Below are positions 35,020-35,905 of a stretch of DNA of 54,351 bases, piece by piece. How positions within the stretch are numbered: position 1 is the first letter of the stretch; every line of letters starts with the position of its first letter. Source of the stretch: Pseudomonadota bacterium (GTDB lineage: Bacteria; Desulfobacterota; Binatia; Binatales; Binataceae); assembly GCA_021324855.1 (NCBI GenBank), contig JAJPIG010000017.1:1-54351 (forward strand), given 5' to 3'. Below the pieces are notes generated by a model, which had not been told where the DNA came from, searched no databases, and saw only the letters and a program-made list of their open reading frames with translations. The translations under genes and the position numbers were made by a program.

Positions 35020-35265
35020 ATGGGTAACTGGGAGCCGGCCGCATATCGCGATTACAAGTGGATCGTGCGCGATCCGGAGCTACTGGGCGGCAAGCTGGCG
35101 GTGCGGGGCACACGGCTGTCGGTCGCGTTCGTGCTGGCCTGCCTAGGCGAGGGAATGAGCGCGGAGGAGATCGCGCAGACCTATGCGCCGTTCCCGCTCG
35201 AGGCCATCCCGGAGATCATGAAGGTCGCATCCGAGCTGCTCGATTTGGGGCATGTGGCTGCCTGA
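35020..35265 (+). CDS. DUF433 protein (antitoxin-like)
   Basis: 81 residues. The DUF433 pattern is complete: RDPELLGGKLAVRGTRLSV, then GMSAEEIAQTYAPFPLEAI. DUF433 proteins are small helix-turn-helix proteins that often precede DUF5615 PIN-like proteins and are regarded as antitoxins of VapBC-like pairs. It overlaps the next gene by 14 bases, normal for such pairs. A minus-10-like TAGAAT at 34996-35001 could drive it, but no matching minus-35 box is clear. Confidence 0.85.
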   Translation: MGNWEPAAYRDYKWIVRDPELLGGKLAVRGTRLSVAFVLACLGEGMSAEEIAQTYAPFPLEAIPEIMKVASELLDLGHVAA

Positions 35266-35590
35266 CGCCAATATGCCGGTGCAGCTCGTGGCGCTGCTCG
35301 GGGAGTTGGGCGTCGAGGCCGATTCGGCGGTTACGCGCGGGTGGAATACGCTCAGCAACGGGGCGCTGGTGAGCGCAGCCGTGGCGGCGGAATTTATCGC
35401 GCTGCTGACCCGGGATCGGCTGTTCGGAGAATCGGCGGCGCAGGCGCTCAAGGTCCACTCCGAGTTCGGTATCGCGCGGATTACACTGCCGCAACTGCGC
35501 GCCAACCAGTTCCTGGTGGCGTTCCGCGCGGCGTGGCAAAAGACGCGAATCGTCCCAGCGCCGGGACAGATGATAGAGTGGCCCGGGTAA
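35252..35590 (+). CDS. DUF5615 PIN-like protein (toxin-like)
   Basis: 112 residues. WLPDANMPVQLVALLGELGV at the start carries the first PIN-domain Asp (normally DENL or DANM), and IALLTRDRLFGESAAQAL contains the TRD-like second acidic site (usually TxDxDF). Late Arg-rich region as in the family. The predicted role is a ribonuclease toxin neutralised by the DUF433 partner. The second motif is slightly degenerate (RDRLFG in place of xDxDFG), so nuclease activity is uncertain. The pair sits inside a broken RHS repeat. Confidence 0.8.
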   Translation: MWLPDANMPVQLVALLGELGVEADSAVTRGWNTLSNGALVSAAVAAEFIALLTRDRLFGESAAQALKVHSEFGIARITLPQLRANQFLVAFRAAWQKTRIVPAPGQMIEWPG

Positions 35591-35604: not shown

Positions 35605-35803
35605 CTGCCCAACAGCGTGATCGTCACCTACGGCTACGACGCGGATTCGCGGCCGACCGGGCTCACCTATGGAACCGGCGGCTCATGGACGAGCCCCGCC
35701 CGGCAATCTGAGCAACCTGACATACACCGGAGCCTGTCCTGAGCGAAGTCGAAGGAACGCCGACGGACGGCGAACAGTGGTCGGCGGCAGCCTGGCGGCG
35801 GCT
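35605..35803 (+). pseudogene. RHS/YD-repeat remnant, right fragment
   Basis: Begins LPNSVIVTYGYDADSRPTGL (35605 onward), the continuation of the left fragment. After GTGG the frame shifts and reads GNLSNLTYT, then a 30-base in-frame insert (see repeat), then ADGRRTVVGGSLAA, which is again RHS sequence. It loses similarity near 35803. The gene is broken by the toxin-antitoxin insertion, a frameshift and loss of both ends. Confidence 0.75.
35729..35758. repeat. Short interspersed repeat inside the RHS remnant
   Basis: The 30-base segment contains TGTCCTGAGCGAAGTCGAAG, which I recall as a widely dispersed short repeat in many environmental bacterial genomes, giving peptides such as ACPERS when translated. 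Here it exactly replaces the two codons (Tyr-Asp) expected between LTYT and ADGRR, adding ten codons in frame. The core is partly palindromic (TCCT...AGGA around TCGA). Confidence 0.6.
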
Positions 35804-35905
35804 GAAAGGAAACGGTCAGAATCCGTGTGATGTGGCGCACACTGATCCACGTTGCTGGAGCTGATAGGCGAGCGGCGGGCGCGTCAGAGATCAGCCAAGC
35901 CGACT

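Follow-up and report, generated by a model that had tools for sequence, protein, structure and literature searches.

A 24-nt segment in an RHS remnant of a Binataceae genome as a probable copy of a widespread REP-like hairpin unit

What is the short segment that lies in frame within an RHS fragment of a Binataceae genome, flanked by the peptides LTYT and ADGRR, and how might it have arrived there? The window in which it was noticed, a stretch of 54,351 nt from contig JAJPIG010000017.1, holds an exact 20-base core at this position (Table 1). It is the sole match in the window when up to three mismatches are allowed, against 0.02 expected from shuffled sequences; by the same search, the copy is single. 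The original prediction, made from the letters of the window, was that a 30-base interspersed repeat had entered an RHS remnant, replacing two codons and keeping the frame, and that the precise junction suggested a small mobile or gene-conversion unit tolerant of coding regions.

The RHS remnant and its uninterrupted homologues

The label “RHS remnant” is a fair one because no RHS_repeat match occurs in the whole genome at E ≤ 0.001, and it is borne out by the sub-cut-off PF05593 match of the upstream piece and by the shift of frame between that piece and the one carrying LTYT. Translation from position 35702 reads GNLSNLTYT-GACPERSRRN-ADGRRTVVGGSLAA. Two loci, L302 and L309, from two genomes of the same family, to which the upstream piece is 61-66% identical, are uninterrupted at the site, reading LTYG-YD-ADGRR and LSYT-YD-ADGRR, respectively. 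The in-frame replacement of two codons was thus correctly predicted, since the homologues have Tyr-Asp where the window has the segment, and the 30 nt of the window compared with 6 nt in L302 and L309 amount to a net gain of 24 nt. The core is not a fixture of this site in RHS genes, being absent from all 30 RHS loci examined in relatives, a set that includes some overlaps. When 395 genomes of the phylum were searched with a 65-residue query, the window was the only match at E ≤ 1e-5, and a 20-residue peptide searched against plasmids gave two weak Streptomyces matches.

The length assigned to the unit is based on the net gain of 24 nt relative to L302 and L309 and on the equal length seen in three host palindrome families (described below). 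Together, these sites indicate 23-24 nt, and the predicted 30-base unit is not supported. The proposal of a small mobile or gene-conversion unit that tolerates coding sequence stands in part, namely in the insertion of a defined unit relative to the homologues and in the occurrence of the motif within Pfam domains of other genes. The precise in-frame junction can be accounted for without any coding preference, because the 24-nt unit is open in five of six frames and its insertions mostly keep the frame.

Table 1. The segment and its surroundings, in positions of the window.
Feature	Position	Strand	Remarks
Small gene with DUF5615 domain	35252-35590	+	E 1.7e-5, slightly above cut-off; immediately 5' of the RHS remnant
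RHS remnant, upstream piece	35605-35703	+	PF05593, E 3.6e-4, 21.3 bits, slightly below the 22-bit cut-off; tblastn to L302, L309
RHS remnant, downstream piece with unit	35702-35829	+	Different frame; no stop, no Pfam match
24-nt unit GCCTGTC-CTGAGCGAAGTCGAAG-G	35732-35755	+	Frame reading ACPERSRR; ends ±1-4 nt
Exact 20-base core	35735-35754		Between LTYT and ADGRR
TGTC	35735-35738	+	Similar to the CGTC/TGTC tag of CGTC REPs, as given in an excerpt of PMC3733652
Bipartite core CTGAGC-GAA-GTCGAAG	35739-35754	+	Core fixed by search

Occurrence and hairpin structure of the unit

Within the window's own genome, one exact 20-mer and one with two mismatches were found, and the 18-mer CCTGAGCGAAGTCGAAGG occurs exactly twice, in the window and on another contig; the core is therefore rare there, yet not unique. 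The second exact 18-mer (G000:C9:110632, locus L011) is surrounded by decayed look-alikes of the motif. With the three-base spacer left free, the motif is present in 15 of 57 relatives in up to 42 copies, the reversed pattern occurring 0 to 1 times, and the exact 18-mer is found in 20 of 395 genomes of the phylum. That the core is very common in environmental genomes, which had been proposed at the outset, was confirmed by a scan for CCTGAGCGAAGTCGAAGG in one genome per species, which returned at least 119 stretches from many phyla. Those listed include Flavobacteria, Sphingomonads, Chloroflexi, Acidobacteria, Cyanobacteria, Patescibacteria, Planctomycetes, and others. In 15 genomes picked because they bear copies, CTGAGCNNNGTCGAAG is present in 1 to 264 copies per genome, with a reversed control of 0 in all, and the bipartite core reaches 56-264 copies in each of seven genomes from Sphingomonas, Flavobacterium and Scalindua, again with a reversed control of 0. 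S. yabuuchiae has 198 copies, Sphingomonas sp. BT553 has 57, and a Parabacteroides has 14. Short matches were seen in 198 plasmid records (best E 0.06), including 23 places in one Sphingomonas parapaucimobilis record, and 90 stretches were found among 2.9 million virus contigs, so viruses are not a main home of the core. The copies in genome G050 lie 11 forward and 6 reverse, with no clear GC skew in 20 samples of 20 kb.

Two arrangements of the core were also seen. Genome G187 (L255, L260) has tandem cores spaced 27 nt, with GGACTCAC-type spacers, and three genomes of one genus (G192, G264 and G285; L200, L207-L212, L215, L217, L222-L226) have the core within a repeat of ~60 nt with GAACGG on both sides. 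A search of the full-text literature with the letters of the core returned no paper on it; the search is thin in subscription journals and does not extend to figures, so an earlier description is possible. Shorter pieces of the core gave no title on bacterial repeats among the matches listed, and PERSRR returned unrelated papers only.

The spacer and outer stem of the core vary among copies, and the family can be written as NYYTRYC-CTGAGC-NNN-GTCGAAG-G. The first outer pair is formed in 156 of 157 copies with full flanks, a figure inflated by selection, as the scan pattern itself fixes this pair (C-G) in 125 copies. Among the 32 copies outside the scan pattern, the first outer pair is formed in 31 (shuffled mean 11.1, maximum 20) and the second in 29 (shuffled mean 10.4, maximum 20). 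For the second pair, the 125 selected copies give a count of 103 (shuffled mean 47.8, maximum 67). The third outer pair shows no covariation, lying inside the shuffled range in both sets. Pair types vary while pairing is kept, as would be expected of a hairpin in which the core is fixed and two outer pairs are free to change. Class A, the window's type (35 copies), has YTRYC immediately 5' of the core, and its second pair is formed in 27 of 35 (shuffled mean 19.4, maximum 27). Class B (73 copies) is defined by GTC or GTTC plus three further bases 5' of the core, with 34 of 43 loci named as Sphingomonads or Bacteroidota, and 49 copies fall outside both classes. Pairs of copies within 120 nt of each other, in the 119 stretches listed, are head-to-head in 19 of 27 cases, tail-to-tail in 5 and tandem in 3. 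Modelled as single-stranded DNA, the window copy has a best fold of 4 bp around a 12-nt loop at -0.9 kcal/mol, and 174 of 200 shuffles fold as well; for two class-B-like oligonucleotides, 19 and 86 of 200 shuffles, respectively, were as good.

Copies in palindrome loops and inside genes

Empty and occupied versions of the same palindrome allow the length of the unit to be read a second time. In ATTCCSGC-loop-GCSGGAAT (341 loci), a palindrome that we take to resemble family CGTC-1 and whose loops hold units of the window's class, 22 loops are of 4 nt and two, in two genomes (L245, L254), are of 28 nt and contain the unit; the other long loops are one of 27 nt with another hairpin and one of 16 nt. 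Further places of this palindrome have mostly 4-nt loops among the matches listed. In the palindrome CCCTCTCCC-loop-GGGAGAGGG, 30 loops in the plus-strand listing are of 3-7 nt, and those with the unit measure 29 nt (L132, L203), 28 nt (L439, with a two-base spacer) and 29 nt (L440, with a decayed core); long loops without the unit are L347 (28 nt), L044 (17-18), L109 (50) and L361 (38). L439 and L440 come from one genome, G050, in which eight CTGGA/TCCAG loops are empty. The core's own loop is of 3 nt in 289 cases, of 2 nt in 27 and of 26 nt in four. A core lies within three of these four, all in G122, and cores are found in longer spans of this loop in L227 (30 nt), L024 (37 nt) and L202, L216 and L218 (52-58 nt). 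Loops thus go from 4 to 28, from 5 to 28-29 and from 2 to 26 nt, and the three palindrome families and the RHS site agree on a gain of 23-24 nt. Some of the occupied sites may go back to a single event, as the 26-nt self-loops with a core are all three from G122, and G050 is the source of both L439 and L440.

Another hairpin, which starts with a GGAGTTTAYC-like sequence, occupies loops (26-27 nt) of ATTCCSGC palindromes in G285 and G192 (e.g., G192:C69:38135-38176), and loop nesting is therefore not confined to the 24-nt unit.

The frequency of units in loops was compared with that for swapped flanks and random positions. Among 102 copies from the 119 stretches listed, a set without neighbouring cores and with look-alikes removed, 10 have a flanking helix of at least 7 bp, compared with 0.9 for swapped flanks (maximum 4 in 200) and 1.1 for random positions; two further sets gave 1 of 21, compared with 0.1 for swapped flanks, and 5 of 32, compared with 0.4. 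The class-A test started from 124 units across loci, 82 of which remained after look-alike removal. Helices of at least 6, 7 and 8 bp flank 12, 10 and 9 of these, compared with 1.67, 0.71 and 0.35 for swapped flanks (maximum 3 of 500 at the 8-bp threshold) and 1.95, 0.72 and 0.18 for random positions. Depending on the threshold, this excess is 7- to 26-fold, and class-A units are over-represented in the loops of unrelated palindromes. The notion that palindromes are the sole insertion target was rejected, as a flanking helix of at least 6 bp is missing from 70 of the 82 class-A units; the RHS site is itself among the sites without an evident flanking palindrome.

Copies also lie inside genes. 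In the 119 stretches listed, a motif is spanned by 47 ORF entries of at least 180 codons, no fewer than 30 of which lie to either side of it, and 20 of these entries, chosen by codon-position GC, were scanned against Pfam. Seventeen have a match at E ≤ 0.001, that of L151 falling under its cut-off. The motif lies inside the best-matched stretch in seven (DNA ligase, RuvC, MFS, dihydrolipoamide dehydrogenase, ornithine carbamoyltransferase, DUF885 and transglutaminase) and outside or between matched stretches in the remaining ones. A preference for RHS genes, as raised by the original prediction, was not seen, none of the 20 scanned ORFs (of 47) matching an RHS family; a YD-repeat regular expression applied to 193 copies gave no match, missed the window as well, and was not counted. 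Six motif-bearing proteins were compared with PDB relatives. In its best alignment, RuvC is 8 residues longer at the motif, dihydrolipoamide dehydrogenase has gaps totalling 8, a molybdenum-enzyme protein has 21 extra residues in a linker, and transglutaminase has about 4-5. Ornithine carbamoyltransferase has no net gain, and DNA ligase has none relative to the closest PDB chain and about 6 relative to the next. Some of the coding matches are insertions; replacement or chance may account for others.

Of the 17 ORFs with a Pfam match, three are DNA repair genes (L045, L084 and L107, encoding an ATP-dependent ligase, RuvC and MutL), too few to test. They recall a remark on repair genes in the excerpt of PMC3733652; the ligase has no clear gain.

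Possible origins and relation to known repeats

We give slightly better than even odds to the view that a non-autonomous, REP-like hairpin unit of 24 nt was inserted here via single-stranded DNA and that the window segment is an intragenic copy of it. Such a unit would move as single-stranded DNA, fold into an irregular hairpin that is read by a hairpin-recognising enzyme, and be joined into single-stranded DNA that lies exposed, as on a lagging-strand template, with hairpin loops as the preferred target; the enzyme may act in trans, may have been lost, or may belong to a family other than Y1_Tnp. Support comes from the 24-nt gain over the unit-free RHS homologues, core counts far above chance in many genomes, the two covarying pairs, the head-to-head pairs, the over-representation in loops and the lengths of those loops, and the gains in RuvC and dihydrolipoamide dehydrogenase. 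Counting against it are the poor fold of the window copy (energy models may misjudge the odd core pairs), the third pair, the 70 class-A units without a helix, and the missing gains in ornithine carbamoyltransferase and ligase, and no candidate mobilising enzyme was found, Y1_Tnp being the sole family looked for. A more far-reaching view, which we offer only tentatively, is that of a cross-phylum single-stranded DNA parasite of 24 nt, a codon-length unit without an enzyme of its own, which would insert into the hairpin loops of other repeats and of its own copies, build nested hairpins and add eight-residue in-frame segments to proteins by a mechanism new to description.

Spread without any enzyme is rather unlikely, though several observations agree with it. 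A replicating strand stalled at a hairpin would switch template and copy the tip of another, so that tips are added or exchanged in a manner resembling gene conversion, and copies would be enriched in hairpin loops and nested inside the core's own loop, as observed. It also agrees with the lack of Y1_Tnp in three copy-bearing genomes (S. yabuuchiae, Sphingomonas sp. BT553 and a Parabacteroides). Loose switching of this kind does not, however, predict a constant gain of 23-24 nt at palindrome-free sites such as that in the RHS remnant. Movement by a RAYT/TnpA_REP-type transposase (Y1_Tnp, PF01797), as thought for GTAG REPs, we regard as unlikely. It would suit the REP-like hairpin and the pairs, and some Y1_Tnp is present in 12 of the 15 copy-bearing genomes and in 7 of 15 relatives with the motif as opposed to 11 of 42 without it (Fisher p 0.20, not significant). 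Against it, the window's genome, like the three just named, has no Y1_Tnp, and copies do not track the gene among relatives (18 genes and 3 motifs in G035, 0 and 17 in G050, 0 and 8 in G032). The TnpA_REP neighbour suggested at the outset did not materialise either: in copy-bearing genomes, 30 Y1_Tnp loci (of 50 places) taken with flanks of up to 1.5 kb all lack the exact motif, and so do 20 loci (of 27 places) in relatives, two of which have a one-mismatch motif. The 0 of 30 speaks against flanking REPs and not against action in trans, because few chance neighbours are expected at such densities.

A core copied for a function at the DNA level, such as a protein-binding or uptake-type site, with the RHS copy as a by-product, appears very unlikely. 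The bipartite core is fixed and its three-base spacer free across phyla, as such a site would have it, but the outer bases vary freely with pairing kept, and the distribution is very uneven, the exact 18-mer being present in 20 of the 395 genomes from the phylum. That many records are MAGs might suggest a chance match or an assembly artefact, which we hold to be extremely improbable given the 0.02 matches expected in the window, the control counts (as many as 264 copies in the genome of an isolate, with 0 reversed) and the variation of spacer and stem between copies.

The preferred reading, insertion of a hairpin unit via single-stranded DNA, has a mechanism that is testable through the near-constant 24-nt gain, the loop preference, and the occurrence in G050 of a palindrome with both empty and occupied loops. 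Moreover, ACPERSRR, PSTSLR and LRLRSG in proteins of unrelated bacteria may trace back to one mobile repeat rather than being conserved motifs, with a bearing on annotation and domain models.

Among known systems, the CGTC REPs (Di Nocera et al. 2013, PMC3733652) offer the most points of comparison. As described in the excerpt of that paper, these have stems of 8-9 bp, loops of 4-5 nt, a short tail that is mostly CCA, and an unpaired CGTC, TGTC or CCTC tag at one end; head-to-head pairs predominate, copies occur within genes, no transposase lies beside them, and how REP-like repeats multiply without a dedicated transposase is treated as an open question. The present unit is likewise a short palindrome with predominantly head-to-head pairs, copies in genes, and no transposase alongside, as judged from Y1_Tnp alone at 30 loci. 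TGTC does stand 5' of the window core, but its last C pairs with a G 3' of the core in the aligned family. Unlike the CGTC REPs, the window copy has a 4-bp, 12-nt-loop fold (and the family two covarying outer pairs), a core with mismatches and a 2-3-nt spacer, and GGAAC after the core in place of the CCA tail. As stem, loop and tail misfit in the window copy, the unit is not filed as a CGTC REP, the CGTC families being compared by description only. A MITE, defined in the same excerpt as 70-300 bp with terminal inverted repeats of 15-30 bp, was ruled out by a net gain of just 24 nt. The palindromic elements of Rickettsia (RPE), likened here by their description in that excerpt, are also short palindromic repeats in frame within ORFs. 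In the present case, however, the ORF is a remnant and the palindrome weak, the unit is in frame in some other genes as well, and it is spread across many phyla, whereas RPE are reported there from Rickettsia. With the GTAG REPs and their TnpA_REP/RAYT (PMC8266576, in excerpt), the unit shares an irregular hairpin with mismatches, single-strand recognition being a feature of the GTAG system; it has no GTAG tag and no RAYT beside copies in the loci examined. Finally, the IS elements that target REPs (PMC1525189, in excerpt) are whole elements, whereas the unit is 24 nt long and has no protein of its own, but in both cases palindromic repeats serve as insertion targets.
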